A stretch of 41,228 nucleotides of DNA from IMG/VR virus record IMGVR_UViG_3300044681_001056, positions 1-41,228 of that record. The stretch is one strand, 5' to 3'. Positions 1-32,042 of this stretch are shown here, in pieces. The position numbers and the translations under genes were made by a program. Every line of letters begins with the position of its first letter. Positions within the stretch are counted from its first letter, which is position 1. Source of the DNA: a virus. The notes under the pieces are model-generated. The model did not search any database and was not told where the DNA came from. It saw nothing but the letters and a program-made list of their open reading frames with translations.

Positions 1-117
1 GACTACAACGACAGAACCCACAGACACGGGTATGGGGAGAACATAGACGGAACCAGGGCCACCTATGGAGCGGGAATTTCTTCTGGCTCGACCATTGACT
101 TGTCGGTTAAGAAATGA
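1..117 (+). CDS. C-terminal end of an unidentified protein (5' truncated)
   Basis: An open frame runs from base 1 to a TGA at 115-117 and codes for the last 38 residues of a protein whose start lies outside the window. The visible part is rich in Gly, Tyr, Arg and His and ends in DLSVKK. The stop overlaps the next start codon as ATGA (114-117), which is typical of coupled phage genes and is the main reason to believe the frame is real. A Gly/Ser/Thr-rich C-terminus of this sort is common in virion proteins, but nothing here identifies the family. Confidence 0.6.
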   Translation, partial: DYNDRTHRHGYGENIDGTRATYGAGISSGSTIDLSVKK

Positions 118-821
118 CAAAAATAACCCTCAAAAAAACTGAGACCAATGCACCTCAGATAGTTCAATCGCGCTTAAAGCGTGACTGGATGGACGAAACC
201 TACAAAAAGCACGCATATCAGTGCATGCCCATGACGGTTGCAAATGTCCTTGGATGGGAAATCCAAATGCAGGAGGACCTGGTCGTGAAGTGGGAGGGCG
301 GAAATACCGTTCCTAAGATTTTGTCAGGAGAAGTCGCTTCCAACGGCAGAAGGCAAGCAACTTCATCAATCATTGGCATGATATCGATACATATGGGGTG
401 GATAATCAACACGGAACCCGGAGTTGAAACATGGTTCTCTCCATCGCCAAACTATTTTATAGATGGCGCAGTCGGTCTTTCTGCCACAATCCCATCGTGG
501 TGGTGGCCTGATGAGGTTCAGATGAACTGGAAAATCACCAAGGTAAATGAGGAAGTTGTTTTCCCGGCTGGCTCACCTATGTGCTTTTTCACCGTTTACT
601 CCCCACAAATTGTTCTTGATGCGCAATTCGAGGTGACAAGTCTCTGGGACGATAGGGAGTTGGTCCAGTCAAGGTCCAAATACGGGCAGATGAAGTCAAA
701 GAACAACCGAGAAAACCCTTGGACATGGACAAAGGGAATTAAGACAGGTGTTGACGCAGACGGAAAACAGATTGGCCCAACATTCACCGGTTTGCCGACC
801 CTTTCTGAGCCAATGGTATAA
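114..821 (+). CDS. DUF6065-like protein
   Basis: This 235-residue protein is soluble, with no signal peptide or membrane segment. It has an aromatic-rich core: CMPMTVANVLGWEI near residues 37-50, ETWFSPSPNYF near 105-115 and IPSWWWPDEVQMNW near 126-139, followed by FPAGSPMCFF. From memory this pattern matches DUF6065 proteins, which occur in phages and bacteria and are often found beside 2OG-Fe(II) oxygenases. No biochemical function is established for them. The start overlaps the upstream stop (ATGA), and the gene heads a run of co-directional accessory genes. The family assignment is recognition of the pattern, not an alignment, so the call is moderately sure and the function is unknown. 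Confidence 0.7.
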   Translation: MTKITLKKTETNAPQIVQSRLKRDWMDETYKKHAYQCMPMTVANVLGWEIQMQEDLVVKWEGGNTVPKILSGEVASNGRRQATSSIIGMISIHMGWIINTEPGVETWFSPSPNYFIDGAVGLSATIPSWWWPDEVQMNWKITKVNEEVVFPAGSPMCFFTVYSPQIVLDAQFEVTSLWDDRELVQSRSKYGQMKSKNNRENPWTWTKGIKTGVDADGKQIGPTFTGLPTLSEPMV

Positions 822-1872: not shown

Positions 1873-2167
1873 AACACTAGGCGGGCAGCCCCTCTTCGAC
1901 GCCGAGGCGAATCTTGACGAAATAGAGGAAGAGCTTGCAAAAATACTGTACATATGCGGCACTGAGTTTGAGCAGATTTCTGACGTAGATATGGATACTA
2001 TTTTCTTCAACCTCCGCCAATCATTTCATATGAGCAGCACCACATTCAATATGCATGGCAGGCCATATTTTGACTTCACGAGAAAAATGAATTTCCTGCT
2101 CACAAACAGGGCAAGACATCTTTGGTTGCAGAGACAGATAGTAATGGCGGTATTACAAAATGGATAA
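1859..2167 (+). CDS. Hypothetical protein (102 aa)
   Basis: A 102-residue protein with a basic N-terminus, then an acidic helical stretch (ANLDEIEEELAKILYICG) and a C-terminal half rich in Phe, Arg and His. It overlaps the upstream gene by 14 bases and the downstream methyltransferase-like gene by 8 bases. No family is recognised. A length near 100 residues and the lack of cysteine clusters or membrane helices fit a small accessory or regulatory phage protein, but that is only a guess. Confidence 0.55.
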   Translation: MRRSKTLGGQPLFDAEANLDEIEEELAKILYICGTEFEQISDVDMDTIFFNLRQSFHMSSTTFNMHGRPYFDFTRKMNFLLTNRARHLWLQRQIVMAVLQNG

Positions 2168-2885
2168 TTTCGCAATCAGAAGCGCCCTCGTGACGCAGCA
2201 GTCATCCAGGGTGATGATGAGCACTAATCTTGATTTTTCAGCAATAATGACCGAAGCGGGAGAAGCAGCTTCAGCGTGGCTTACGTCAATAAACATAGAT
2301 AAAAGAAATGTCGCTGTTGGCGGATTGAACACGTACTGGATTTATGAACTCATCAAGAAAATGGAGCCAGAGTGGGCTGCAATAATCGAGTCTGAGTACA
2401 TTGCCCAGGAACAGGTGCTGATGACGAAAAAGCCGAACTCTGTTCTTTTTGTTGACGCCGACAACATGCTATGGACTGTTTACAAGAATAGATTCCCAGA
2501 TGCGGAACTGTGTTTTGTCAATAACCACACACTCTTCTTCATGGAGAGCGTCGCCAATAACCTGGATTACCAAGGTGCAAAACTTAGCGAGATTTCTGAG
2601 TATGACGTAGTCGACTCCAGTGACATTGGAAACCACAAATTTGATATGGCCATTTGCTGGGCATGGTCGATTGTTGGTAGCGACAAGATGATTAAAGACC
2701 TGGTCGACTCCCTTAATCCTGGAGGAGTGCTTCTGATTGGCATGTCTAATCACAACACGAAACTTTACAGAGAAGATTTCCACATCCATCCATATTCGAG
2801 CATCCACGAAATTCTTCAGAACTCCGACGGCAATACATACCATCTAGCGAACGGATACGGTCAGACTGTATTTGTCAAAAACTGA
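2160..2885 (+). CDS. Class I methyltransferase-fold protein
   Basis: A 241-residue protein whose second half reads like a SAM-dependent methyltransferase (Rossmann type). There is a hydrophobic strand ending in an acidic residue (SVLFVDADN, about 94-102), a FDMAICWAW strand (161-169) in the position of motif II/IV, and the characteristic LNPGGVLLIG (185-194) seen after motif III. A clear glycine-rich motif I (GxGxG) is missing, so SAM binding is uncertain and the protein could be an inactive or divergent member. It sits directly before the oxygenase cluster, so it could act on the same substrate. The start overlaps the previous gene by 8 bases. Confidence 0.55.
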   Translation: MDNFAIRSALVTQQSSRVMMSTNLDFSAIMTEAGEAASAWLTSINIDKRNVAVGGLNTYWIYELIKKMEPEWAAIIESEYIAQEQVLMTKKPNSVLFVDADNMLWTVYKNRFPDAELCFVNNHTLFFMESVANNLDYQGAKLSEISEYDVVDSSDIGNHKFDMAICWAWSIVGSDKMIKDLVDSLNPGGVLLIGMSNHNTKLYREDFHIHPYSSIHEILQNSDGNTYHLANGYGQTVFVKN

Positions 2886-2925: not shown

Positions 2926-3645
2926 ATGGAGCGCGAACCAAGATTTTGGGATGATTTAATTAGGTCGCTTCCCGTATGTTCCCAAATCGAAGAGAACTGG
3001 GAAAAAATTAGAGACGAATATCTGGAGTACGAAGAGACACAGCATCCGTACGCAGCTACCGGAAACAGGGTCTCCCTCCCTGCGCCGAACGTTACTCTTT
3101 CTCATTCGCAATACGAAAATGCCGAACTGACATCAGATAGGGACGGTAGTCATAAGTTGTATACTGGTTCTTGGGATGTCGCTGTTGCTGGCACCGCCCC
3201 AGGTGGAGACCCAAAACAATGGGCAAACACCGAAATGGTGAAGAAGATACTCAAGTGGAAAACAAGGGTTGACCTCGATACTCACCTGGAATATGTCCGC
3301 CAACAATTTAAAACATTTAATTCAATTGTTGAGCAATACGCAGACCGGAATCAGTGCTCTGGCGGAATGTTTAGCATCATGCATCCAGGTGCAGTGGTGA
3401 ACCCACATTTCGGGTCTGACGAAATGATGCGGTGTCATCTATGCCTAATAAATGACACCGGTTGCAAAATAACTGTTGGCGACGAAACCAGAAATTGGGA
3501 AGAGGGGAGAATACTTGCATTCAAAGATGGCCGACCGTTCGAGCACTCCGTTAGGCACGACGGTGAGTCAAGAAGGCTCGTTTTGATGTTTGATTTTGAT
3601 ATGGAGTATTTGAGAACAAAATTCCCGGGCGCACAGTATTTGTAG
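2926..3645 (+). CDS. Aspartyl/asparaginyl beta-hydroxylase-like 2OG oxygenase
   Basis: A 239-residue cytosolic protein of the AspH type (PF05118-like). This group uses Fe(II), 2-oxoglutarate and oxygen to hydroxylate Asp or Asn side chains. The C-terminal half carries the family pattern: HPGAVVNPHFGSDEMMRCHL with the first metal His at H161, R169 and H171 for 2OG binding, then DGRPFEHSVRH with the second metal His at H207, and an Arg pair at 216-217. AspH enzymes use two His and no carboxylate, so the missing Asp is normal. The N-terminal 100 residues are not assigned. It is the first of seven oxygenases on this strand. The protein target is unknown. Confidence 0.8.
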   Translation: MEREPRFWDDLIRSLPVCSQIEENWEKIRDEYLEYEETQHPYAATGNRVSLPAPNVTLSHSQYENAELTSDRDGSHKLYTGSWDVAVAGTAPGGDPKQWANTEMVKKILKWKTRVDLDTHLEYVRQQFKTFNSIVEQYADRNQCSGGMFSIMHPGAVVNPHFGSDEMMRCHLCLINDTGCKITVGDETRNWEEGRILAFKDGRPFEHSVRHDGESRRLVLMFDFDMEYLRTKFPGAQYL

Positions 3646-4317
3646 ATGATTCTCGTAGAGGATAACTGCGTAACGGGCGAGCTGTACAAAAGGGTTGCCG
3701 ATACAGAAGATTTTTTCGCAGTAAATTTTGAAAACGACGAGCAAATAGCGCGCGAGCTGAACTCCTACCACGGCGAGTCCAAGGGAATGTCCTCGTACAT
3801 GTTCTGGGGAGGCTGGATTAACGACAAAGAGAGGACAATCAAGCATGAGGTCATCCGACAAATCTGGGATGGGAGGCTCCCGTTCCCGGTTGAGGATGTC
3901 ATCGGGTTTGAGTACTGGACGCGCACATTCGAGCCTGGTCAATTCATAGGGCCCCACGTCGATGAGGACACATTCGCATATCGATTGACAAAAACGTTTT
4001 ATGGCCCGAGAATCGGGTGTGTTTGGTATGGCCGCGACAATGGAGATGGCGGATTCCTGGAGATACACCAAAACCCCATAGAAGATGGCTCCACATTGGC
4101 GCTAGAGCCCTCTAGGATGCCCCAGTTTGCGTCAGAACCGCAAAATAGGGAATTGGTGGCATACAAGGGAAATAGGCTCGTCATATTCGACTCTGGGCAC
4201 GTTCTCCATAGCACCACTCCGGCTGGTTCTGGACTCAGGCAGGTGATGGTGATTAATGTATGGACGAGAGATTTGCCCCCTATGGGATTAGCTACAGGAG
4301 AGTTCGTTTATGAATAA
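3646..4317 (+). CDS. 2OG-Fe(II) oxygenase (P4H-like fold)
   Basis: A 223-residue oxygenase with a full set of ligands: H104-V-D106 in FEPGQFIGPHVDED, H188 in FDSGHVLHST, and R198 in SGLRQVMVINVW for the 2OG carboxylate. The double-stranded beta-helix strands are recognisable around them. It starts immediately after the AspH-like stop codon and overlaps the next gene by 8 bases, so the genes are probably translated together. It does not belong to the four closely related paralogues further along. Substrate unknown; protein side chain, glycan or small molecule are all possible. Confidence 0.85.
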   Translation: MILVEDNCVTGELYKRVADTEDFFAVNFENDEQIARELNSYHGESKGMSSYMFWGGWINDKERTIKHEVIRQIWDGRLPFPVEDVIGFEYWTRTFEPGQFIGPHVDEDTFAYRLTKTFYGPRIGCVWYGRDNGDGGFLEIHQNPIEDGSTLALEPSRMPQFASEPQNRELVAYKGNRLVIFDSGHVLHSTTPAGSGLRQVMVINVWTRDLPPMGLATGEFVYE

Positions 4318-4924
4318 CGGTGGTTGGATTTGGCTCGTTCCGGTAAGGGCGCATGAATCTTTCATAAAAGGTCTTGACTACCCCAAAATCGCCCAGCAGA
4401 TACTCGAATCCAGAATCCCTCCGGATTTTCCTGACGCAAAAGAATTCGTAGACGTACAGAGTGGCGTTGACTACGTACTTCCAGACACCATTGAATGCAC
4501 AGTTCTGAAAGAGGAAATAGAGCGGAGAGCAAATGACGTTCTTGGCGAGCTGTACTTGGCCGACATATGGTGCGGGATTTTGGAGAAAGGGCAGTCCACT
4601 CCTTACCACCGTCACAGCTCAAATGCCCACCTGTATCCAGAAGAATATTGGTCTGGCGTTATCTACATAGATGCCGTCGGTCCGGGATGCAGACTGTGTC
4701 TCTACGCCGATGCAATGAACGCATACAACATGGTCACAAAAATAGAGCCAGAAACGGGCAAGATTGTCTTCTTTAATTCATTTGTTCCGCATCAGACAGA
4801 GAGGCACAATGAAGACAGGCCACGAGTTTGCGTAAGTTTCAATCTCTACCCGAAGAACCCAACAACAACAATTTATCCAGACATGAGCCCGTGGGCGCGA
4901 CGAAAAATTGAAGAGCTTGGGTAA
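4310..4924 (+). CDS. Putative 2OG-Fe(II) oxygenase (PF13759-like)
   Basis: A 204-residue protein resembling the putative 2OG-Fe(II) oxygenases of PF13759. Features include W-C-G-I-L-E-K-G before YHRHSSNAHL (99-108), SGVIYIDA (115-122), KIVFFNSFVPHQTERH (151-166) and RPRVCVSFNLYP with R172. The likely metal ligands are His in YHRHSS and H161 or H166. There is no clear HxD, and the first site reads H-R-H-S-S, so the metal set may be two or three His. Oxygenase activity is therefore less certain than for its neighbours. It overlaps the upstream gene by 8 bases. Confidence 0.7.
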   Translation: MNNGGWIWLVPVRAHESFIKGLDYPKIAQQILESRIPPDFPDAKEFVDVQSGVDYVLPDTIECTVLKEEIERRANDVLGELYLADIWCGILEKGQSTPYHRHSSNAHLYPEEYWSGVIYIDAVGPGCRLCLYADAMNAYNMVTKIEPETGKIVFFNSFVPHQTERHNEDRPRVCVSFNLYPKNPTTTIYPDMSPWARRKIEELG

Positions 4925-5227
4925 ATGTTTTCTGGTTCCTGGCTAGCCGATGTCGACACACCGTTCGGTGTAGAGACATACGAACTAAATGTAAACCAAG
5001 ACGGTTCAATCAAAATTGGGTCAAACAGGGGTTCGGTAGATGTACCGCCAGGCAATGTCGTTTTTGGTGAGTGCGGCGAAACTCTCCGGGCGACATTTGG
5101 TATCGACGCTCCGATGATTACCACGGTTCAAATAGATTTTGACTCCAAACACCTCGCCGGAGCGGTTGTCATTGGGGAATTCCTTGGGACGGCATTTAGG
5201 TGCAGAACGGTCGAGGAAAATGTCTGA
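4925..5227 (+). CDS. Small beta-rich hypothetical protein (100 aa)
   Basis: A 100-residue protein beginning right after the preceding stop. The sequence FSGSWLADVDTPFGVETYEL, then a DGSIKIG turn, reads as an antiparallel beta sheet or small barrel of the kind seen in ligand-binding or lipocalin-like domains. This is a fold guess only. It has two cysteines (in FGECGE and FRCRTV) and no signal peptide. It ends by overlapping the GPx-like gene as ATGTCTGA. Its location between oxygenases and a thioredoxin-fold protein suggests a binding or accessory role in the same pathway. Confidence 0.55.
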   Translation: MFSGSWLADVDTPFGVETYELNVNQDGSIKIGSNRGSVDVPPGNVVFGECGETLRATFGIDAPMITTVQIDFDSKHLAGAVVIGEFLGTAFRCRTVEENV

Positions 5228-5834
5228 ATCAATATTTGACATAGACATAAATTCAATAGACGGCTCCGGTGGTCTGCTCGACAAATTGCGCGGGCAAGTT
5301 ATTCTCCACGTAAACATAGCCAGCAAAACCGGATATTCACCAAGATGCAGCAAGTTGTGGTCATACGCAAGGACATCAAGGAATTTTTGGGAATTGCAAC
5401 AAATACATGAACTGTTCTCCGGGGATGGATTCAGTGTTGTCGGATATCCGTGCAATCAATTTGGCCAAATGGAGATAGGTGATAACCAAGAGATACTGAG
5501 TAACATCAGGAAAACATATCCTTTCGTAAGCTTCCCAATTGCAGAAAAAGTCATCGTCAATGGAGACGGCGAGCACCCTGTCTATTCCTTTCTCAAGGGG
5601 ACACTGATACGCAATTTCAGCGATAGCAGGGCGGACACGAGCCAAGCCGCAACCGATGGGCAGAACAAGGCAGGTCAGGTGGCAATGCGCGTCCCACACA
5701 ACTGGGAGAAGTTTCTAACTTCCAGAGAGGGGATTTATGTCGCCAGATTTAACTGGGCAGAATCTCCAGTTTCTGATGTGCCGATGTTCGGGGGAGGGCA
5801 GTCAATCAAGGAAGCCATAAAGGGGCTTTTGTGA
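5220..5834 (+). CDS. Glutathione peroxidase-fold protein lacking the usual peroxidatic Cys
   Basis: A 204-residue thioredoxin-fold protein of the glutathione peroxidase family. It has VNIASKTGYSP (31-41), the second GPx signature GYPCNQFG (75-82) and HNWEKFLTSREG (160-171). In ordinary GPx the residue after NVASK is Cys or Sec. Here it is Thr37 (codon ACC, so not selenocysteine), and the Trp of the usual W-N-F-x-K-F is His160. Relative to typical GPx there are about 13 extra residues between the first site and GYPCNQFG, including Cys43. Peroxidase activity by the standard mechanism is doubtful, though Cys43 or Cys78 might serve. I place the start at ATG 5220, with GAGG just upstream, rather than at earlier in-frame codons, because it gives the normal GPx length and a phage-like 8-base overlap. 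Confidence 0.8.
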   Translation: MSESIFDIDINSIDGSGGLLDKLRGQVILHVNIASKTGYSPRCSKLWSYARTSRNFWELQQIHELFSGDGFSVVGYPCNQFGQMEIGDNQEILSNIRKTYPFVSFPIAEKVIVNGDGEHPVYSFLKGTLIRNFSDSRADTSQAATDGQNKAGQVAMRVPHNWEKFLTSREGIYVARFNWAESPVSDVPMFGGGQSIKEAIKGLL

Positions 5835-6667
5835 ATGATGCAATCAATCACGGATTTGGCATAGTTGAATTTCAAGACATCGTAAAGTTTGATTTTGCCG
5901 ATATCGAGACAGAGATAAACAGTCTCGCCGATAAGGCCATATCGGAAAACTTCAAAATAATAAGAGATGAAGACGGCACCCCAATCCACGCCGTGAACCA
6001 AGGTGGATTTATCTACTCCATCGAGAACATGAATTTAGCCCCATTGCGCCTCCAGGCCCTCGGTCCGAATATCTACAATATTTTTGAGCCTGCTATTTAC
6101 TCTGCGCTTCTCCAGTACATAGAAATATTCCCAGCGATACTCACATGTCTTTGGTGGAGGACTACCGGTCATATCCTGAAGTACTCAAAGGGCGGCTCGC
6201 TGGGTCTCCACTCAGACAATGATGTTAATTACAGGTACGGTTTTGAACCCAAAGAAGAGCACGCAACAAGAAACGTTGTTAGCGCAATTGTGTTTCTCAA
6301 CGACTGGTCTGAGCACCCAGAGGAGGGCAAGTTCACTGGCGGGGAGATGATTTTTCCTTACGCTGACGTAACAATTTGTCCTAAGTCAGGAAATGTTCTC
6401 ATGTTCCCGGCCAATTACGTGGCAGCGCACGAAATAGCAACGGTTACGAGCGGAAGTAGATACACATATCTTGGCTGGTTTGCCCAGGGTTCGGCGATGC
6501 CAGCAAAGGGCATAAGCCCTCAGCCGGACATATCTGTCAATGGGGGACAAGTGTGGCTCAACTCGCTGGTTGAGGATTATGATTCGTACATAAATTCAAA
6601 GTATGGCGGCAATCCACCTGACGTGTCAGTTGCCCACAGGTCCAGGAGCAATGACCATGAACAATAG
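5831..6667 (+). CDS. 2OG-Fe(II) oxygenase, P4H-like paralogue A (GTG start)
   Basis: A 278-residue 2OG oxygenase starting with GTG in a GTGA overlap with the previous stop. The catalytic set is complete: H127-S-D129 in LGLHSDND, H200 in NYVAAHEIATV and R210 in SGSRYTYLGWF. It also has WWRTTGHILKY before the first site and TGGEMIFPY between strands. The same framework occurs at 6657-7559, 7560-8345 and, on the other strand, 9905-10978, so this is one of four paralogues. These resemble prolyl 4-hydroxylase-type enzymes acting on peptides, but the substrate is not known. Confidence 0.88.
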   Translation: MNDAINHGFGIVEFQDIVKFDFADIETEINSLADKAISENFKIIRDEDGTPIHAVNQGGFIYSIENMNLAPLRLQALGPNIYNIFEPAIYSALLQYIEIFPAILTCLWWRTTGHILKYSKGGSLGLHSDNDVNYRYGFEPKEEHATRNVVSAIVFLNDWSEHPEEGKFTGGEMIFPYADVTICPKSGNVLMFPANYVAAHEIATVTSGSRYTYLGWFAQGSAMPAKGISPQPDISVNGGQVWLNSLVEDYDSYINSKYGGNPPDVSVAHRSRSNDHEQ

Positions 6668-7559
6668 GTTCAATGACGTGGAGATGGTTGAGATGGGCGG
6701 GGGAGTTTGCCTATTCCCGAAAGCAATCGACTGCGATTGGAACTTTGTTTACGAGACCTCTAGGGGGCTGGTGGACAGGGATGCTGGAGATATGTATTCA
6801 GAGACAGTGCATCCAGAAACAGGCCAGAAAGCACTTATAAACAGGAGTGGTTATATTTTTGACTACGAAACATTCCTGTCAATGCCCAGTAGGTGCTCAT
6901 CTGCCCACCAGAACTGCAGCGATGAATTTAGGGAAATTCTAGAGTTTTGGGAATCATCCAAAGACAAGTATTTGCTGAAGTACATGCTCAGATATCCGTT
7001 GGCATATAAAAACATATGGTGGAAGGTGAAAGGCCACATAGTGAGGTATGGCTCATTCAATGGTAAATCCAGGGATAACCAATATTTAGGAATCCATTCG
7101 GACACAAGCGCCGATTACGTCTATGGGTACAGCCATCCGTCTGACCAGCTGGCAACGAGAAATACCCTTTCCTGCATCGTCTACATAAATGACTGCGAGG
7201 AGCCAAGAACATCCGAGATGGCGTTTTCTGGCGGTCACCACTATTTCAATGAGTTGGACATTGATTATCGCCCAAGCAAGGGCGACATATTGATGTTTCC
7301 TTCAAACTACATAGCCTCGCATGAGGTCAGGCAAGTTACCTCCGGAGAGAGATACTCCTATCTCGGATGGTATTCACACGGGAGTCCGAACGGGGACTAC
7401 AACGAACACATCGCCGACCCGGCAACAGAACCAGACACCGCACGGGTGTCGACAAATGTTTACTTGCCGAACCTGCGCAAGGACTTTAGGGATTACATAG
7501 AGAAATGTGGAGTTAACAAAAACAACTACGCATACTCGCTAGTTGCGGACGGGTTTTAA
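6657..7559 (+). CDS. 2OG-Fe(II) oxygenase, P4H-like paralogue B
   Basis: A 300-residue oxygenase. The preferred start is ATG 6657, with AGGAG nine bases upstream. ATG 6651 in the same frame is possible but too close to that site. Ligands: H147-S-D149 in LGIHSDTSADY, H222 in NYIASHEVRQV and R232 in SGERYSYLGWY. It shares WWKVKGHIVRY and SGGHHYFNE with its paralogues, but the second reads GGHH where the others have GGE. It overlaps paralogue A by 11 bases and is followed directly by paralogue C. The N-terminal 100 residues differ from those of the other copies, suggesting a different substrate. Confidence 0.87.
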   Translation: MNNRFNDVEMVEMGGGVCLFPKAIDCDWNFVYETSRGLVDRDAGDMYSETVHPETGQKALINRSGYIFDYETFLSMPSRCSSAHQNCSDEFREILEFWESSKDKYLLKYMLRYPLAYKNIWWKVKGHIVRYGSFNGKSRDNQYLGIHSDTSADYVYGYSHPSDQLATRNTLSCIVYINDCEEPRTSEMAFSGGHHYFNELDIDYRPSKGDILMFPSNYIASHEVRQVTSGERYSYLGWYSHGSPNGDYNEHIADPATEPDTARVSTNVYLPNLRKDFRDYIEKCGVNKNNYAYSLVADGF

Positions 7560-8345
7560 ATGAGAGCAACACATCTTGGAAGTGGAATTGTCAAGTTCGA
7601 TGGTGTTCTGTCGACTGATAAAAATGATGTCATGTCCTTTCTGGCTAGTCTTTTGTCGAATACAAAGCCCGAAGGATACTCGGAGCCACAAGATGGGATA
7701 GAGAGAAATTCTGGTGGATACCAGCACAGCTCAAGTCAGGTGAAGCTCGCGCCCGACAGATATATAAATGTAAATTTTGAAGGAATCCAACAGGCAGACA
7801 AGGAAACGCTCATCGACCTGGAGAACTCCACAAATATCGCTGTTCTTCAGTACTTGAAGCACTTTCCGTCGGCGGCAACGTCCGTCAAGTGGAGAACAAG
7901 GGGTTATGTAATCAAATACGAGCGTGGGCAAATGATTGGGCCACACTCCGATGCCTCTCTTCCATACGCCGATGACGGTATGACACCACTGACAATGTTA
8001 CCCATAACAAACACCCTGACGTGCAGCATTTTCCTGAATGACGACTTTGGTGGTGGTGAGCTTCACTTCAGGCCTTGGGGAATTACGGTAAAACCAGAGT
8101 TTGGTTCAATAGTTGTTTACCCATCCAACTTTTCTGGGTGTCACGAGATAACCCCGGTCACCAGTGGAACGAGATTTGCATATTTGTCGTGGTTTTGTCA
8201 TGGGGTGCTGAATGTTTCTCCTCCGTTTGGGCAAAAGTGCGATGACATGGGGAACTTTTCTTACTATCTCGAAGACATTTCGGACTTTCCGGTGAGGTAT
8301 GAGCAGAAGATGGTCACGGTTGGCAATCTTGATTGGATTGCATAG
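7560..8345 (+). CDS. 2OG-Fe(II) oxygenase, P4H-like paralogue C
   Basis: A 261-residue oxygenase that begins at the base after the preceding stop. Catalytic residues are H129-S-D131 in MIGPHSDAS, H195 in NFSGCHEITPV and R205 in SGTRFAYLSWF. It keeps the GGGELHF turn and the ten-residue spacing between the second His and the Arg that all four paralogues share. The N-terminal region is shorter than in the other copies. The substrate is unknown. Confidence 0.86.
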   Translation: MRATHLGSGIVKFDGVLSTDKNDVMSFLASLLSNTKPEGYSEPQDGIERNSGGYQHSSSQVKLAPDRYINVNFEGIQQADKETLIDLENSTNIAVLQYLKHFPSAATSVKWRTRGYVIKYERGQMIGPHSDASLPYADDGMTPLTMLPITNTLTCSIFLNDDFGGGELHFRPWGITVKPEFGSIVVYPSNFSGCHEITPVTSGTRFAYLSWFCHGVLNVSPPFGQKCDDMGNFSYYLEDISDFPVRYEQKMVTVGNLDWIA

Positions 8346-8347
8346 CA

Positions 8348-9178
8348 ATGGACGTGGGAATTGTTTCTCCAGGGAGAATGGGTCTGACCATAGCTCGGTC
8401 GCTGCAGGAACTCGGTCATTCTGTATTTTTTGCATCTGTAAATAGGTCTATGGAGACGATTGAGAGGGCCTCGTGCGGCGGAATTGAGAATGTATTTAGT
8501 CTCGAGAGAATGTCCAAACGATGTAACGCAATCATATGCATAGGCACTGGTGATGCTGCTTTTGAAACCGTGAACAAGGTGCACAAGGATGGTTTCAGTG
8601 GTTTGTATATCGACTTCAACTCACTGAACGGAGAAGATGAAGAAAGAAAGTGGAGAACTATAACATCCAACTACACGGACAATTTTGCAGAGGGAGCAAT
8701 TAGGGGTTACCCAATTGAAGGAAACAATTTGAATGACGGGCTGAGCAGGCTGATGATTCTGTCCGGCCCAAAGGCTGATGAGGCCGCTGCTCTATTTTCC
8801 GGAGGAATATGGGATATACAGGTATCGGCAACGGCGGCAAAATCTGTCAATCGACTCATGGCATCAGGTGGCAACACCGTGATAAGAGACCACCTCTACC
8901 AAGACAAAACAACCCAAAAAGACGAGCACTGGGAAGATGAGATGCTCAACATAATTGCTAATAAGTTCTACGTTGACGGACGCACTGGAGCAGAGACAAT
9001 GGTGTACATATGGGAGCAAATCAGGGACGGAAAACTCCGCGAAATATGCATAGAGCTTGGCTTCCCCGAACAGCTGGGGTTTATTCACGGCATAAATACA
9101 TTTAGCAAGAATCTAAGAATTAACAACTCTCTCGATAAGCCTCGAGGCGAGCTCCCGCTTTGGCAGGAGCCAAGATGA
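8348..9178 (+). CDS. NAD(P)-binding dehydrogenase-like protein (beta-hydroxyacid/6PGDH type)
   Basis: A 276-residue protein with an N-terminal Rossmann domain: VGIVSPGRMGLTIARSLQEL has the G-x-x-x-x-G-x-M-G layout of 3-hydroxyisobutyrate/6-phosphogluconate dehydrogenases, followed by a second strand with Ser/Asn in the position that often contacts NADP phosphate. A mid-protein segment (VSATAAKSVNRLMASGGNTV) is where these enzymes keep a catalytic Lys, and a Lys is present there. The C-terminal half would be the helical domain. It lies between two oxygenases, so it may oxidise or reduce a product of theirs. Start at ATG 8348, two bases after the stop of paralogue C. Confidence 0.65.
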   Translation: MDVGIVSPGRMGLTIARSLQELGHSVFFASVNRSMETIERASCGGIENVFSLERMSKRCNAIICIGTGDAAFETVNKVHKDGFSGLYIDFNSLNGEDEERKWRTITSNYTDNFAEGAIRGYPIEGNNLNDGLSRLMILSGPKADEAAALFSGGIWDIQVSATAAKSVNRLMASGGNTVIRDHLYQDKTTQKDEHWEDEMLNIIANKFYVDGRTGAETMVYIWEQIRDGKLREICIELGFPEQLGFIHGINTFSKNLRINNSLDKPRGELPLWQEPR

Positions 9179-9936
9179 ATAAGAGTTATTTTGAGCACTA
9201 TTTTGGTATGGACGGATACATGGTTTTTCCAAATGCCGTCCCAAGAGAGCTCCTCGACGCATACAGAGGTAAGTATCCACGCGATGTGGTCATGAACAGC
9301 GCGCCGTATTCGTCGTACTTTTCGTCTAGGTTCGAGTTCTTGGATAACAAGGAGATATTGGACATCGCCTGTTTGCCGATACTCAACAAAGTTTTCGCAT
9401 ACATGGGAAAGTATTTTCGTGTTCACATGAGTGAGGCGAGAGTCGGTAGCTCATCCATCAAGTGGCATAGGGACTTCAATCCGAGCCACATCGGCTACGG
9501 TTCGTCCGGCTACATAGAGAGCGGAGATGAATACATGGGCCTGCTTGTCGCTATTTCCGATGCACAGGAGGGCTCCGGATGCTTCGAGCTTGTCCCAGGT
9601 TCACACAAATGGGAAACAGATTATTCGGTAGTAACAAGAGAAAATCTCCTGAATAACCCAGATATCTGTTTTGATTATTACGAGAAACTCATACACGACA
9701 AACGCGCTACCACATTTGAATTTGCTCCACGAAGTGGTGACATGCTCTTATGGCATGGGAGCCTGATTCATAGAGGGAAACAACCCGACAGGAATGGACT
9801 TGAGCGAGAGTCTTTACTTATTCACTACGCCGGAATTTCACACGATGACGTTATTAGAAATACGTATGAGGAGAGCGACTTGATGGCAAAGGAATATCCA
9901 GGTTCTAGGATGATTCTCCAGGGACTTCCCGAATAA
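9175..9936 (+). CDS. Phytanoyl-CoA dioxygenase (PhyH)-like 2OG oxygenase
   Basis: A 253-residue PhyH-family protein. It has the first metal site H98-R-D100 in IKWHRDFNP, the typical GSGCFELVPGSHKWE (133-147), then RSGDMLLWHGSLIHRG with the distal His at H199, and R211 (GLERESLLIHY). PhyH enzymes hydroxylate small molecules such as lipids or secondary metabolites rather than proteins, which sets it apart from its P4H-like neighbours. The start is ATG 9175, overlapping the previous stop as ATGA with AGGAG upstream. The 3' end overlaps by 32 bases the convergent gene on the minus strand. Confidence 0.87.
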   Translation: MNKSYFEHYFGMDGYMVFPNAVPRELLDAYRGKYPRDVVMNSAPYSSYFSSRFEFLDNKEILDIACLPILNKVFAYMGKYFRVHMSEARVGSSSIKWHRDFNPSHIGYGSSGYIESGDEYMGLLVAISDAQEGSGCFELVPGSHKWETDYSVVTRENLLNNPDICFDYYEKLIHDKRATTFEFAPRSGDMLLWHGSLIHRGKQPDRNGLERESLLIHYAGISHDDVIRNTYEESDLMAKEYPGSRMILQGLPE

Positions 9937-10978
9937 GCTGCTCCGGGTATATTTTCCCGCGATTTTCCGTCTCTTCAATAATCTTTTTGGCCTCATACCG
10001 CTTGGATAAACCATTTTCCCCTTCAAGCGTTCTGTTTTGGAATACTGGATTTGTTTTCATTACATCGAAGTCTGATTGGCCAAACTCTGCATGCTTCGCA
10101 TATAGCGAGTAGTCGTCGTAGAGGGAATCAATCCAGTGGGGGCGACACCAATCATCAACTTCGTCCGGCTCTGAAACATTTATCAAAACATCATCATGCG
10201 ATGAGCCCTGCGAAAAGAACTCTAAATAACCGTAGCGCTTCCCCGATTTGACGCTATGCACTCCGTGCGTGGCTATGTAGTTGCAGGGGAATATGACGAT
10301 ATCGCCGGCCTTGGCCTGATGTGTTATTCCAAGATATGGGAAGAATAGTTCGCCCCCCGTATAGTTCGTACCATCAAGCTCCGCAGAAGTGGAAACGCAG
10401 TCGTTCACATACAGCATTACGGCAACAACTTGCCGCATCTGCACCTGGCCCTTGGGGACGAATCTCTCTCCTCCCGTTGCTCTGTAATTTGAGTCGTTAT
10501 CGTTGTGTACGCCAAGATAGTCGCCCTCGTCATATCTGAGTAGATGCCCCCTGCTTCTCCACCAGATTGTTCCGACAACGAATGGGAATCTATGAACGTA
10601 CTTGAGCAGGCATTTGTATATCTGGTCTTCCCAGTCCCTGAATATTTCGACCATCTCCGGCTCCGTAGCTTTTGTTACCGGCTGAAGAACTCGGATTGGA
10701 ACCTCCTCGACTTGCTCTATTGAGAACTTGTTACCGTCCTCGTTAACCGCATACATCTGCCCAGATTCGTCATACTGATACTTCCATCTCTGCTCGTGTG
10801 CTGCTTGCGCGTTTCTGTCGGCCCACGGCATAACGATTTCTTTTTTGGTGTCGACTGCATTCCTAAAACAGACAACTCCACCGCCAAGGTGTATGTCTTC
10901 GAGCGAATCAATTTCAAGCACTTCCTTTTTGCCTATTTTGGGCGTGCTTCCTATCAGGGCGGGGAAGTCAAGACTCAT
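9905..10978 (-). CDS. 2OG-Fe(II) oxygenase, P4H-like paralogue D
   Basis: A 357-residue oxygenase, the longest of the four P4H-like paralogues and the only one on this strand. Ligands are H158-N-D160 in YLGVHNDNDSNY, H238 in NYIATHGVHSV and R248 in SGKRYGYLEFF. It also has WWRSRGHLLRY and TGGELFFPY. It carries a longer N-terminal region and about 60 extra charged residues at the C-terminus. Its start overlaps the stop of the GT60-like glycosyltransferase by 4 bases (ATGA), so the two are almost certainly co-expressed at the end of the tail operon. This makes it the best candidate to create the acceptor for that glycosyltransferase. Confidence 0.88.
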   Translation of the reverse strand: MSLDFPALIGSTPKIGKKEVLEIDSLEDIHLGGGVVCFRNAVDTKKEIVMPWADRNAQAAHEQRWKYQYDESGQMYAVNEDGNKFSIEQVEEVPIRVLQPVTKATEPEMVEIFRDWEDQIYKCLLKYVHRFPFVVGTIWWRSRGHLLRYDEGDYLGVHNDNDSNYRATGGERFVPKGQVQMRQVVAVMLYVNDCVSTSAELDGTNYTGGELFFPYLGITHQAKAGDIVIFPCNYIATHGVHSVKSGKRYGYLEFFSQGSSHDDVLINVSEPDEVDDWCRPHWIDSLYDDYSLYAKHAEFGQSDFDVMKTNPVFQNRTLEGENGLSKRYEAKKIIEETENRGKIYPEQLIREVPGESS

Positions 10979-11916
10979 TCAAAACAACTCCTGTAGTCAA
11001 GTCCCATCTCACCACAATACTCGATAAAGGAATCTAGCGTTTCCGCACCGAAGTAACCTATTTCATTTGCGGAAAGTATCGACCTGTAGTGCCGTGCGAA
11101 CTCCCTGTACGCAGACGTTATGTGGATTCCACCTTCGTCATGTCTTTGGATTCTTGACTTCCAGTCATCCAAACCAGGCCCGCTGAGATATTTCTCATTT
11201 TTTCCGAGGTGGTAGGCAATTTTTTCTTTAATCGCAAAAATTCTGTATCCCCTTGTCCACGCTCTTATTGGAATAGTATGTTCCTCTCCGAAAAACACAA
11301 CCCGAGGGTCAGGGAACACATCCTTCACGAATTCGCCAGTTGTAAAAAAGAAATGACCAGATATAAACATATGACGCACGTAGTATGGGAGGTCGCCCCA
11401 CTCGCCCGAATCTACTATTGGTGAGGTCATGTCTTCTGTGTATTCTGTAATATTCTTTATGTACTCGACAGACTCTGCGTCGTACCCGAGTGGATTTGCA
11501 AGGGAGTCGTGGAATACCTCGGTTCCATCATCCATTTTTTCAAACCATGGAGTCCTATTGGATATTATTATCTTGCAGTAAGCCCTATTTAAATATGTGT
11601 AGGCGAGAACCAACTTTCTATCCCAGTTCTCCTCCATGCGCATATGGGCATCGAGCCGCATGAAGAAATCCTGGCCATTCCAGAGCATTGATGCTTCAGC
11701 GAATTGAAACCCCAGGCCACGCAAAACATTTGTGTGTGTATTTATGGACCTTACGTTTGTGTATTCAGAAAAGTCTTGGAAAATTCCGTCTGTTCTTTGG
11801 TTCGATACGCCTACGTAGATTTTGTCGGGATGTGCGGCATTTGAGTAAATGCTTTCAATCGTGTTTAATAGGTCATCCTCGTCGAGAGACGGAATGGCTA
11901 TAAATATTGATGCCAC
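10975..11916 (-). CDS. GT60-like (Skp1 GlcNAc-transferase-type) glycosyltransferase
   Basis: About 313 residues. ASIFIAIPSLDEDDLLNTIE is the N-terminal strand and helix, FFMRLDAHMRM (about 84-94) holds the D-A-H metal site typical of GlcNAc-type transferases (PF11397), and VVFFGEEHTIPIRAWTRGYR is the conserved acidic segment near the C-terminus. Characterised GT60 enzymes add GlcNAc to hydroxyproline of Skp1 in Dictyostelium, and other family members modify mucin-type proteins. The frame is open further upstream, but that part overlaps the zinc-binding gene. I prefer GTG at 11916 (TAGTG overlap), with GTG at 11922 also possible. It is cytosolic, with no membrane anchor. Confidence 0.82.
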   Translation of the reverse strand: MASIFIAIPSLDEDDLLNTIESIYSNAAHPDKIYVGVSNQRTDGIFQDFSEYTNVRSINTHTNVLRGLGFQFAEASMLWNGQDFFMRLDAHMRMEENWDRKLVLAYTYLNRAYCKIIISNRTPWFEKMDDGTEVFHDSLANPLGYDAESVEYIKNITEYTEDMTSPIVDSGEWGDLPYYVRHMFISGHFFFTTGEFVKDVFPDPRVVFFGEEHTIPIRAWTRGYRIFAIKEKIAYHLGKNEKYLSGPGLDDWKSRIQRHDEGGIHITSAYREFARHYRSILSANEIGYFGAETLDSFIEYCGEMGLDYRSCFE

Positions 11917-12143
11917 TACCACTTGCCAATTGGGCAGACCGCGCCTTCCAGGGTCACCTTCATCGGCATTATGCATCCGCACTCCCTGCATTGCCGCGTC
12001 GACTTTATGAGACGTGGGCACTCCAAGCAGATTGCATACCTGCGCTCGGACTCCTCTTTTTCTACCTTTTGCACTCTTGGGTCAATCACATCCCATGGCC
12101 TGGTGGAGCCAAGCTTCTCCTTGTATCTTTGCCAGGCGTTCAT
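11916..12143 (-). CDS. Small zinc-ribbon protein (DUF6171-like)
   Basis: A 75-residue protein with Cys39-x-x-Cys42, Cys52-x-x-Cys55 and Cys70 in the order ICLECP, QCRECGC and AVCPIGKW. It therefore probably binds one zinc or iron. The ending CPIGKW preceded by an M-K-x-K-like stretch is a common pattern in phage proteins near tail fibre genes (DUF6171-like, from memory). The role is unknown, perhaps a fibre-assembly or DNA/RNA-binding factor. It overlaps the glycosyltransferase start and is three bases after the 79-residue gene, within one operon. Confidence 0.75.
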   Translation of the reverse strand: MNAWQRYKEKLGSTRPWDVIDPRVQKVEKEESERRYAICLECPRLIKSTRQCRECGCIMPMKVTLEGAVCPIGKW

Positions 12144-12145
12144 TT

Positions 12146-12385
12146 CTATACCCCTTCAGGAGCGTTGAAATGTTCTCCATCCCAAATCCAGCCAGGTCTA
12201 GCACCCTTGGCCTGCTCTGGGGTTATCGGGATTATTGTTGGATTAGATTCAAGGGCGGCAAGAAGACCTTCCATCTCTACCGACTGAGCAAAAACTATTG
12301 GACCGGCATATTCACCGTCCACCAGAACGGCAAAAAATCTCACTGGTCTTGTGTCTGCGCCTTCTGGGATTTCCATAAGTGGCAT
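12146..12385 (-). CDS. Hypothetical tail-associated protein (79 aa)
   Basis: A 79-residue protein: FFAVLVDGEYAGPIVFAQ, then a helix and ESNPTIIPI, ending in RPGWIWDGEHFNAPEG. The C-terminal G-W-x-W-D-G motif is frequent in small phage proteins encoded beside tail fibres, where some act as fibre chaperones. That role is inferred only from context. It has no Cys, signal or membrane segment. Confidence 0.6.
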   Translation of the reverse strand: MPLMEIPEGADTRPVRFFAVLVDGEYAGPIVFAQSVEMEGLLAALESNPTIIPITPEQAKGARPGWIWDGEHFNAPEGV

Positions 12386-12417: not shown

Positions 12418-13056
12418 CTAACAGCCGAACGGCAGGTCTTGCCACAGGCTCCAATCGGTGAACGACGGGCAACTGCAACCAGAGCATGCTCCGCCGCATC
12501 CGGTCCCAGACGAGCCACTCGCCCCACACGAGCCGTCGTAGTAGATACCGGTTCTTCTCTGTACATTCGGGTAATTGCATCGGTACTCTTCCACGGCCTG
12601 ACCGACACAGCATACGCATGGTGGCGGGAAATCCGGCGGGAAGAACGGCGGGAAGAATGGCGGGAAGAACGGCGGAAAGAATGGCGGAAAGAATGGCGGG
12701 AAAAACGGCGGGAAGAATGGCGGGAAGTAAGGCGGAGCAACGGTAGTTATGCTGTTTGAAGACGAAGAAGACTGACTATTGACTCCATATGAAGTCTGAG
12801 CAGCAACTGTGAATGTGTATGTTGTCGAAACCGTCAGACCATTTACCGTTATTGGAGATGTTGTGCTTGAACCAGTAATCCCACCAGGGCTGGAAGTGGC
12901 GACATATGTAACTGTCCCTCCCTTTCCGGTATAAGAGGGTGGGGTGAATGCAACGGTTGCCGAATTCGCTCCAGTTGCCGTTGCCGTGCCAACGGTTGGC
13001 GAGCCGGGGACGGAGCCACCGGAAACAGCGCCTGGACCTGGGCGACCTGGAATCAT
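12418..13056 (-). CDS. FN3-domain virion protein with (PPFF)n stalk and Cys-rich tip
   Basis: 212 residues in three parts. Residues 17-107 form a fibronectin type III domain (PGSPTVGTATATGANSATV, TVTYVATSSPGG, GLTVSTTYTFTV). Residues 108-146 are a tetrapeptide repeat: PPYF, seven PPFF, PPDF, PPP. Residues 147-212 hold about ten Cys among Gly/Ser (CVCC, SGTGCGGACSGCSC). The repeat should form an extended, hydrophobic polyproline-like rod, and the tip may be disulphide- or metal-stabilised. It follows the fibre gene by a TAATG overlap, so it is probably an adhesin or tip protein of the tail. The prolines and Ser/Thr-rich linker are plausible sites for hydroxylation and glycosylation by the downstream enzymes (inference). 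Start ATG 13056 is chosen over an upstream in-frame ATG that would overlap the fibre gene more. Confidence 0.75.
   Translation of the reverse strand: MIPGRPGPGAVSGGSVPGSPTVGTATATGANSATVAFTPPSYTGKGGTVTYVATSSPGGITGSSTTSPITVNGLTVSTTYTFTVAAQTSYGVNSQSSSSSNSITTVAPPYFPPFFPPFFPPFFPPFFPPFFPPFFPPFFPPDFPPPCVCCVGQAVEEYRCNYPNVQRRTGIYYDGSCGASGSSGTGCGGACSGCSCPSFTDWSLWQDLPFGC
12635..12730 (-). repeat. 12-bp tandem repeat encoding PPFF
   Basis: Eight adjacent 12-base units on the plus strand read GGCGGGAAGAAT or variants with A/G and C/T changes, ending with GGCGGGAAGTAA (the PPYF unit). On the coding strand each unit gives Pro-Pro-Phe-Phe or Tyr. Such an array can gain or lose units by slippage without breaking the frame, which would alter stalk length. 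It is inside a coding region and is not a CRISPR array. Confidence 0.9.
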
Positions 13057-13856
13057 TACGATACGCTCAAATCGCCTATGAGAATCCACTCGTCTGTGGC
13101 GCGCTTAATAAGCGCGGCAGATGAGTACTGAGCGCGCAGATAGACCCCAGGATTCGACCTTATTGTTGTTGTTGCTGGGACTGCTGCAACAACCTGGGTC
13201 TTGCCCGCCCCATACTGGAAAAGGGTTATCTGAGTACCAACCGGAAAAGCTACTGATGCATTTGTCGGCACAGTCACCTGATTAGCCGAGGCAACATTCA
13301 TTTCTACAAGTTTATTTTTATCAGTGAGCACAAGTGTGTAGCTCGCTGTTCTGGTATTTATCGATACGTCAGCGAGTTTGCCAATCTCGATAGCCGCGGA
13401 TGATGAAATATCAGCATTGACGATTGTTCCATCAGCAATTTTGTCGGTAGTAACCGAATCTGACGCAAGTTGAGATGCCCCAACCGCCCCTGCAGCAATC
13501 TTGGAGGCCGTTACGGCTCCAGAACCAATTTTTGCTGCCGTTACGGCACCTGTTCCAATTTTATTTGCGGTAACTGCTCCATCAGCGAGTTTTTCTTCTG
13601 TTACTGTTCCGTCACCAATTGTGAACTGCTGAGCAGATTGCCATTCTGAACCGTTGAAGTACTGGACGTCGTCGGTTTCGTCGATGTAGCAGAAACGGCC
13701 CTCGGTTAGAGACGGCTGACCGGAACCGCCATAAGCGGCGTCACGTGCGGCCTCGGTGGAGAACCTGGCGATAACCTGGTCCATTAGGTAGCCATTCACC
13801 TGAGCGGCAGTGAGCACCTCTCCTGAAACAAATACTTTTACTCCTGCGCCTGCCAT
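13056..13856 (-). CDS. Tail fibre-like protein with repeated GAVT-x-x-KI motif
   Basis: A 266-residue virion protein. The N-terminus (VFVSGEVLTAAQVNGYLMDQ) resembles the attachment segment of phage minor tail or fibre proteins. Residues about 80-160 repeat a ten-residue unit (DGAVTANKIG, TGAVTAAKIG, SGAVTASKIA, AGAVGASQLA), the pattern of a triple beta-helix fibre shaft. The C-terminal 100 residues are beta-rich (VTVPTNASVAFPVGTQITLF) and look like a small head domain. It lies after the I-like baseplate gene, where phages of this architecture put fibres. The receptor is unknown. Confidence 0.78.
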   Translation of the reverse strand: MAGAGVKVFVSGEVLTAAQVNGYLMDQVIARFSTEAARDAAYGGSGQPSLTEGRFCYIDETDDVQYFNGSEWQSAQQFTIGDGTVTEEKLADGAVTANKIGTGAVTAAKIGSGAVTASKIAAGAVGASQLASDSVTTDKIADGTIVNADISSSAAIEIGKLADVSINTRTASYTLVLTDKNKLVEMNVASANQVTVPTNASVAFPVGTQITLFQYGAGKTQVVAAVPATTTIRSNPGVYLRAQYSSAALIKRATDEWILIGDLSVS

Positions 13857-30358: not shown

Positions 30359-30907
30359 TTAGCGGTCAGGATTTGGCGGGGACTCAATTAGTGGTTCATC
30401 GTCGAATGCGCCCGGTGGGGCCTCCACCGGAACCCACGCTCGAGAGTAGGTGTGTTCGTGTATTTTGCGAACTTTTATTATCGAGCCATCAAGCATTAGG
30501 GCCAATTCGTCAGGCTTCATGCATAGGATTCGTTCAAAATCTTCCCGCGCATATTTCTTTGACTGCTTCATTTTCCTTATAGATGTTGACATCTTTTTGG
30601 CAACGACCGAACCTCTCCCCCTATTCAGGCGGAGATGCATCATCATCGCCTCAAGAAGGTCTACGTCATGGAATACGACAGGAATTTTGTTTCCGACTTT
30701 CTTCTTTATCGCAGAAACATTCTTTGCCAAAAGGACTCGCTCGCTTCCGTCTATTACCTCTTTTGTCGATTCGCGCACATGAATTGGCTGGATAAACCCC
30801 AATTCAGAAAGAGAGCCAGACAGAACTAGGAGGTCTGGCCTGAGTATGTGTGTTGTCTTCCATTCTGGGACAATCAGCTCGTCAATGTCAATGTGTTCAA
30901 TTTTCAT
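30359..30907 (-). CDS. ParB/Srx-fold protein (IbrB-like position)
   Basis: A 182-residue protein with the ParB/sulfiredoxin pattern: IDIDELIVPEW, then LSELGFIQPIHVRES, KEVIDGSERVLLAKNVS and KIPVVFHDVD. The G-S-E-R replaces the usual G-x-R of partition ParB proteins. The C-terminus is Pro/acid-rich. It overlaps by 11 bases the PAPS-reductase-like gene, which itself follows another ParB-like gene. In enterobacterial prophages the pair IbrA (PAPS-reductase-like) and IbrB (ParB-like) regulates other genes. Whether this pair does so is unknown. Confidence 0.72.
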   Translation of the reverse strand: MKIEHIDIDELIVPEWKTTHILRPDLLVLSGSLSELGFIQPIHVRESTKEVIDGSERVLLAKNVSAIKKKVGNKIPVVFHDVDLLEAMMMHLRLNRGRGSVVAKKMSTSIRKMKQSKKYAREDFERILCMKPDELALMLDGSIIKVRKIHEHTYSRAWVPVEAPPGAFDDEPLIESPPNPDR

Positions 30908-32042
30908 ATGTCTCCACGTTTGCCTGCTCTTGTTCTATAACCCGAACCGCATGGGCCTTTGTTTTCGGCCCAACCGGAGTTGGCGAGTTGACGTCAATGT
31001 CATTAAGCAAGAGGTTTCTTATCAACCACGAGACCGGATAACCGAGTGGGTCTTGGTTGTGTTTTGTTCTGAAGCGCGAAACAAACGCTCTCGCATCTCT
31101 CTGTCTTTTATCCCCAATTAGGTAATCGTCTATAAACAAACTTGCACCGTCAAATCCGTATGCAGAGTATTTCCCTATTAGCTTCTCTACGTCAAAATCC
31201 GGCCACCATCGTCTCTGTCCGTCTATGTACGGAAAACACTCAAACAGCCTGTCGTAGAATTCTGGTTCGGTTGCTATTACGTCGCCGATTCTTCTAATCG
31301 CAATACTGTGCAGGGGTATCCCCACTCGGGTATTACTTCCGGTCATTGCTGCCATGTCGTAGTAGTCGCAGAATGTCGCCCCATGTTCTTCGACTATGAA
31401 CTTGAATACGTCGTTCGTGTTCCAGTCGTAAATAACTTTGGCAAACTTCAATGGAATTGTTCTTTTTAGTTTGTATGGGGTGACTATGTAGTTCTCGTGT
31501 AGTTTTTGCACGATTGAGCGGTAGCGAATCATCGACTCGCTAGCCCTAACGCCGGTAAGGAAAGCTACGTTCCCGCGTTTACCCTGCATCGTGTAGTAGT
31601 CGGTTGGCTCCGGCAGCGAACGAGAATGGTCAAGCCCGAAATGGTATGCACTAATAGCCCACGGCGGCATGTCTCTTACTAGACGACCCTCTTGCCTTCG
31701 TCTCTCGCTCCAGAGCAGTGTTGTCTCTCTTCGTCCGAGCACCCAAACCTCAGCCGGGTATGGAAGGCAGTACCACTCCATATCCACCCAATCAAAGTTT
31801 CTTACCTGCTCTACGTACTCAACAACCGAGGGGCTGACCATCTCCTCATCTCGGAATATCACTTTCACTGGCCCGAGCCCTCGCTCCTCGTGGACCTCCT
31901 TGGCTAGGTAGAGAATTGCCGTGCTGTCCTTGCCACCAGAGAACTGAACACACACGGTGTCGAAGGTGTCGTAGACGTGTCGTATCCGCTGCCGAGCAGC
32001 ATCGACACACGACATGTCAAGGAAAAGGCGTTGTCGGGTCAT
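30897..32042 (-). CDS. PAPS reductase-family PP-loop protein (IbrA/DndC-like)
   Basis: 381 residues. The PP-loop SGGKDSTA (35-42) identifies the adenine-nucleotide alpha-hydrolase fold of PAPS reductases and related sulphur-transfer or ATP-pyrophosphatase enzymes. RGNVAFLTGVRASESMIRYR is the second conserved segment, with the R-A-S-E-S signature. KVIYDWNTNDVFKFIVEEHG follows. The usual C-terminal ECGLH cysteine of sulphate-assimilation enzymes is absent, so ordinary PAPS reduction is unlikely. Phage proteins of this type are often paired with ParB-like proteins, as here on both sides. Function in nucleic-acid modification or regulation is inference. Confidence 0.82.
   Translation of the reverse strand: MTRQRLFLDMSCVDAARQRIRHVYDTFDTVCVQFSGGKDSTAILYLAKEVHEERGLGPVKVIFRDEEMVSPSVVEYVEQVRNFDWVDMEWYCLPYPAEVWVLGRRETTLLWSERRRQEGRLVRDMPPWAISAYHFGLDHSRSLPEPTDYYTMQGKRGNVAFLTGVRASESMIRYRSIVQKLHENYIVTPYKLKRTIPLKFAKVIYDWNTNDVFKFIVEEHGATFCDYYDMAAMTGSNTRVGIPLHSIAIRRIGDVIATEPEFYDRLFECFPYIDGQRRWWPDFDVEKLIGKYSAYGFDGASLFIDDYLIGDKRQRDARAFVSRFRTKHNQDPLGYPVSWLIRNLLLNDIDVNSPTPVGPKTKAHAVRVIEQEQANVETYEN

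Follow-up and report, generated by a model that had tools for sequence, protein, structure and literature searches.

The DNA analysed here, called the window below, is the whole 41,228-nt IMG/VR virus record IMGVR_UViG_3300044681_001056, in which tail, terminase and portal genes are present; since records with similar terminases reach up to 172 kb, it is probably a fragment. Between positions 2926 and 10978, an earlier note made from the letters alone had placed eight 2OG/Fe(II) oxygenases of at least four groups, seven on the plus strand and the eighth convergent. HMM searches bear this out: all eight match Pfam (PF05118, PF13640 five times, PF13759 and PF05721), falling into four Pfam groups, and their number, coordinates and strands were correct (Table 1). 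The eighth gene overlaps the seventh by 32 nt. The AspH (PF05118), PF13759 and PhyH (PF05721) genes score above the curated cut-offs, and the product of 3646-4317 lies 1 bit under that of PF13640 (26.0 bits vs 27); 16 of 27 members of its family match PF13640 (E <= 0.001), with H104, D106 and H188 invariant in 27 sequences. This protein belongs to a family separate from the other four PF13640 members, with the same catalytic set, so the count of five P4H-like genes was right, yet four of the five form a single paralogous family. The catalytic set, noted earlier as complete in most, is HxD...H...R in six of the eight, with HxG in the AspH-like protein and HxH instead of HxD in the PF13759 protein.

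The proteins named as neighbours of the oxygenases fared unequally. The GPx fold was borne out, and in its NVASxC motif the peroxidatic Cys/Sec is Thr in the window; 17 of 21 sequences in an alignment lack the Cys, relatives carrying Thr, Ala, Leu or Tyr in its place, and the protein is thus unlikely to be a peroxidase. The dehydrogenase-like protein has a weak Pfam match, and the methyltransferase fold proposed for 2160-2885 found no significant match in Pfam or PHROG, its product being possibly methyltransferase-like. Upstream lies a DUF6065 gene, whose AlphaFold2 model (pLDDT 86) folds as a jelly roll of the trimeric dUTPase type (Z 11.4, 119 aligned, 3.0 A); a search of open-licence papers found none on DUF6065 (PF19541). 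Elsewhere in the window, a reading of the sequence places a PAPS-reductase-like gene beside ParB-like genes (30897-32842, minus strand).

The four P4H paralogues share 27-35% identity (mutual E 4e-28 to 4e-49), all match PHROG 61, and HxD, the distal His and the Arg are kept in all of them and throughout a 35-sequence alignment. The AlphaFold2 model of 5831-6667 (pLDDT 90.6) has prolyl hydroxylases as its nearest solved structures, at Z about 16: 4bqy (Z 16.1, 190 aligned, 3.4 A), 5c5t (Z 16.1, 164 aligned, 3.1 A) and 3gze (Z 16.0, 174 aligned, 2.9 A), the neighbours including chlorovirus PBCV-1 vCPH, PHD2, an algal P4H with (Ser-Pro)5 and a Bacillus P4H. On family membership and fold the paralogues are predicted prolyl hydroxylases, with proline as the putative target residue; P4H-fold enzymes can also act on other residues or on small molecules.

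Just outside 2926-10978, beyond the convergent P4H gene, lie an FFPP protein and a PF11397 glycosyltransferase gene. Specifically, a tight minus-strand run leads from a tail fibre through the FFPP protein and two small genes to PF11397 and finally to P4H, the stop of the PF11397 gene overlapping the P4H start by 4 nt. PF11397 corresponds to CAZy family GT60, whose Dictyostelium member adds GlcNAc to a hydroxyproline of Skp1 (PMC8724618), and from its sequence the protein here is a predicted polypeptide GlcNAc-transferase, for which we found no sequence-close solved structure. A conserved-peptide search of IMG/VR for close relatives of it returned none; an HMM search did find relatives. A hydroxyproline glycoprotein system would be expected to show just such a grouping, with a proline-repeat tail protein, a glycosyltransferase of a hydroxyproline-modifying family and a P4H encoded side by side in a single run.

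Table 1. Features of the oxygenase cluster and the adjoining minus-strand run (positions in the window; locus counts refer to the relatives described below).
Feature	Position	Strand	Evidence
DUF6065 protein, core	114..821	+	PF19541 E 2e-41; 66/80 P4H loci; 53/120 FFPP loci (among the matches listed)
Conserved gene	2160..2885	+	71/80 P4H loci; no significant Pfam/PHROG match
AspH-like 2OG oxygenase, accessory	2926..3645	+	PF05118 E 1e-25; 14/80 P4H loci
2OG oxygenase, distinct conserved family, core	3646..4317	+	PF13640 E 2e-5; 59/80 P4H loci
2OG oxygenase PF13759, optional	4310..4924	+	E 3e-11; PHROG 81 E 3e-24; 33/80 P4H loci
Small protein, often just before GPx-fold gene	4925..5227	+	14/80 P4H loci; gene maps
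GPx-fold protein, core	5226..5834	+	PF00255 E 2e-24; 63/80 P4H loci
P4H paralogue 1	5831..6667	+	PF13640 E 3e-11; H127, D129, H200, R210
P4H paralogue 2	6654..7559	+	PF13640 E 8e-12; aligned catalytic set
P4H paralogue 3	7560..8345	+	PF13640 E 7e-10; aligned catalytic set
NAD-binding dehydrogenase-like, accessory	8333..9178	+	weak Pfam match, E 0.003; 12/80 P4H loci
PhyH-like 2OG oxygenase, accessory	9175..9936	+	PF05721 E 2e-16; 3/80 P4H loci
P4H paralogue 4	9905..10978	-	PF13640 E 3e-8; catalytic set
Glycosyltransferase PF11397 (GT60/Skp1-type)	10975..12021	-	E 3e-29; 103 bits vs cut-off 21
Small Cys-rich zinc-ribbon-like protein	11916..12143	-	DUF6171 E 4e-6; PHROG 13558 E 6e-14
Small protein, minus-strand run	12146..12385	-	ORF; homologues at equivalent place in relatives
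Candidate substrate: fn3, (FFPP)n tract, Cys-rich C-terminus	12418..13089	-	fn3 E 2e-6; sequence
Proline tract PPYFPP(FFPP)7DFPPP	12619..12735	-	sequence; synonymous codons varied
Tail-fibre protein, directly upstream of candidate substrate	13056..13856	-	PHROG 8780 minor tail protein E 7e-27; PHROG 892 tail fibre E 1e-17

Joint occurrence of the P4H family and the FFPP repeat

The FFPP proteins vary in architecture. Among 72 that were scanned, fn3 occurs in 37, PASTA in 3 and intein-like domains in 3, and in 55 of 123 distinct FFPP proteins the tract ends 15 residues or fewer from the protein end; in several phages two FFPP-type proteins flank the cluster. In some, an intein/Hint-like domain follows the tract (L007, L024, L025). 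A variant repeat mixing FFPP and FPF (PFFPPFFPFFPPFF) is common among FFPP loci (e.g. L003, L022, L030), and in several records with this variant the P4H-type genes are all more distant ones, numbering up to about twelve in a record. Across 888 adjacent repeat units that are identical in protein, 672 differ synonymously; the repeat is maintained by selection at the protein level.

Virus stretches were selected with a degenerate DNA pattern for FFPPFFPPFFPP, which gave at least 120, and control stretches with the proline-rich pattern PKPEPKPEPK (a PKPE repeat). Among the matches listed, the P4H family occurs in 79 of 120 FFPP-selected stretches, compared with 0 of 120 PKPE controls; when whole records were searched, it occurs in 104 of 120 FFPP records among the matches listed (0 of 43 PKPE controls), and most of the other 16 are fragments. 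Reduced to non-redundant groups, 72 of 83 FFPP groups among the matches listed have the family. In the reverse direction, three [FY]FPP units were found in 19 of 20 records selected by P4H, and FFPP in 51 of 80 P4H loci. A collagen-type substrate was rejected, (GXY)8 repeats being present in only 1 of these 80 loci. Among 84,980 prokaryote genomes the FFPP pattern occurs at only 12 places, where the genuine long tracts (L428, L431, L437) adjoin P4H-type genes and most other matches are short chance frames.

Among 16 records of close relatives, picked by terminase alone at 82% identity or more, 4 have both the repeat and the P4H family, 11 have neither, 1 has P4H only and 0 have FFPP only (Fisher 0.003); the lone P4H-only record carries its P4H gene at the contig edge. 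In two records that lack the cluster, G027 and G029, both upstream tail genes are still found at the syntenic locus, as are the fibre, an fn3-type protein and the zinc-ribbon gene, and neither FFPP nor P4H is present there. As the enzymes and the repeats co-occur in many viruses related to this one, it is probable that the phage modifies its tail itself, in much the way that collagen is modified in animals and cell-wall proteins in plants; the co-occurrence may be partly due to shared ancestry of large aquatic phages. In cultured phages, neither the 3646 oxygenase nor DUF6065 nor the FFPP protein has a homologue, and the only P4H matches are distant cyanophage domains; the nearest cultured-phage terminases, from methanogen and Gordonia phages, are 41-44% identical and do not fix the host. 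Three cyanophages with distant PHROG 61 oxygenases have no FFPP repeat, so the link covers one subfamily and not all phage P4H-like genes.

The earlier note had offered two readings of the cluster, a multi-step pathway or a set of separate protein or glycan modifiers, and the relatives favour the second. Counted over 80 P4H loci, the recurring genes (in 59 to 80 loci) are those for the P4Hs, DUF6065, the GPx-fold protein and the 3646 oxygenase and the gene at 2160-2885, and the PF13759 gene is optional; AspH (14), dehydrogenase (12) and PhyH (3) come and go, which leaves the reading as one pathway unsupported, and independent occurrence in related phages, suggested as a test of the cluster, is seen for the accessory oxygenases only. 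The modifier reading holds up in that the P4H family tracks with the proline-repeat tail protein and shares a run with PF11397. The P4H/FFPP core is widespread, with GT60, AspH, PhyH and the dehydrogenase accessory to it. PF11397 itself was found in only 9 of 25 P4H records (2 of 43 controls), which makes the sugar step optional. Clusters of relatives add radical SAM/SPASM proteins, methyltransferases, a PF04488 glycosyltransferase and oxygenases of the TauD and AurF-like types, and such changing additions would be expected if this is a decorating module whose make-up differs from phage to phage. For instance, an AurF-like di-iron oxygenase (PF11583) lies within one relative's cluster (L419:7141-8250), and in two others radical SAM/SPASM genes, a possible further peptide modification, adjoin the PF11397 transferase (L422:519-1559, L423:1865-2914).

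A candidate maturation system and its alternatives

We regard it as likely that the core genes of the cluster serve the post-translational, hydroxyproline-type maturation of a tail protein of the phage itself, in which hydroxylation and glycosylation would be the successive steps. What the sequences show directly is which enzyme families are present, that a tail protein carries a proline repeat, that these genes adjoin, and that enzymes and repeat are present or absent together. More specifically, (i) the four P4H paralogues would hydroxylate prolines of the fn3 protein 12418-13089 within its [F/Y/W]FPP repeats, and the preferred proline or repeat context probably differs from one paralogue to the next, (ii) in the lineages that have it, the PF11397 transferase would then add a sugar, most likely GlcNAc, to hydroxyproline, and (iii) the catalytically degenerate GPx-fold protein might, as a guess, serve as a thioredoxin-fold partner in the way that PDI does for collagen P4H. 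The AspH, PF13759 and PhyH oxygenases and the dehydrogenase would be lineage-specific add-ons, which may modify other residues in the same or other tail proteins. Presumably the result would be a polyproline-II stalk or tip that is stiff, resists proteases and has a modified surface, with consequences for host binding.

The oxygenases could instead be auxiliary metabolic genes that act on host small molecules and form, together with the dehydrogenase and the GPx-fold protein, a pathway of several steps. Phage P4H genes are usually classed in this way (PMC9301287), mixed enzyme types adjoin here, and relatives add TauD- and AurF-like oxygenases; however, conservation is lowest for members of the small-molecule type, while the conserved ones track with the tail-protein repeat and adjoin tail-fibre genes, and we consider this explanation improbable. 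Just as unlikely, in our estimate, is that the targets are the aromatic residues (Phe/Tyr) of the repeat, or host proteins such as EF-Tu, and not the tract prolines. Phe occupies the second position in 337 of 353 repeat units, EF-Tu-modifying bacterial P4Hs are among the structural neighbours and the cluster holds several oxygenase types, but the close structural neighbours are nearly all prolyl hydroxylases, and a host-protein target would leave the joint absence of enzyme and tract unexplained. That the P4H cluster and the FFPP proteins are merely common to one phage lineage by descent is very doubtful: the records are related fragments and simple repeats evolve easily, but the family is present across most non-redundant FFPP groups among the matches listed, and both are jointly absent from the same locus in relatives with terminases at least 82% identical.

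Known hydroxylation systems and viral P4H genes

Extensins, the hydroxyproline-rich glycoproteins of plants and algae, combine a proline-repeat stalk, P4H paralogues and glycosylation of hydroxyproline, and collagen P4H has a thioredoxin-fold partner, PDI. The proposed tail-protein maturation would share the proline-repeat stalk and the P4H paralogues with these systems, and putatively also hydroxyproline glycosylation and a thioredoxin-fold partner; it differs in its repeats, which are SPPP or GXY there and [FYW]FPP in the phage proteins. In the protist Skp1 pathway, a P4H is likewise followed by a GT60-type transferase that adds GlcNAc to the hydroxyproline of a cytoplasmic protein (PMC8724618), but that pathway concerns one proline and oxygen sensing, whereas in the phage the candidate target is a tract of repeats in a virion protein and the transferase is optional.

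Among viruses, chlorovirus PBCV-1 also encodes a P4H fold, the top model match (5c5t), whose role in replication has been described as unknown (PMC7019647); PBCV-1 is an algal virus, whereas in the window four paralogues lie near a candidate tail substrate. The marine-phage family PHROG 61, annotated '2OG-Fe(II) oxygenase' and matched by the four paralogues, has already been reported to resemble EGLN3 structurally, with no substrate given (PMC12774648), and differs in that the three cyanophages with distant homologues have no FFPP. In viromes from the Baltic Sea, prolyl 4-hydroxylase was one of the abundant 'auxiliary' genes, and its viral use was called cryptic (PMC9301287). The open-licence literature that we searched gave no prior report of FFPP repeats or of a link between phage P4H and a tail protein.

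On balance, we lean towards the wider view that a widespread phage group builds hydroxyproline-rich, partly glycosylated tail proteins through a dedicated multi-enzyme pathway for [FYW]FPP stalks. A linked, sequence-defined candidate substrate makes the role of viral P4H experimentally testable. If the proposal is true, it would (i) mean that the maturation of phage tails includes a step that depends on oxygen, (ii) give viruses of bacteria a counterpart to the maturation of collagen and extensins and (iii) explain the role of many 'prolyl 4-hydroxylase' auxiliary genes in aquatic viromes.
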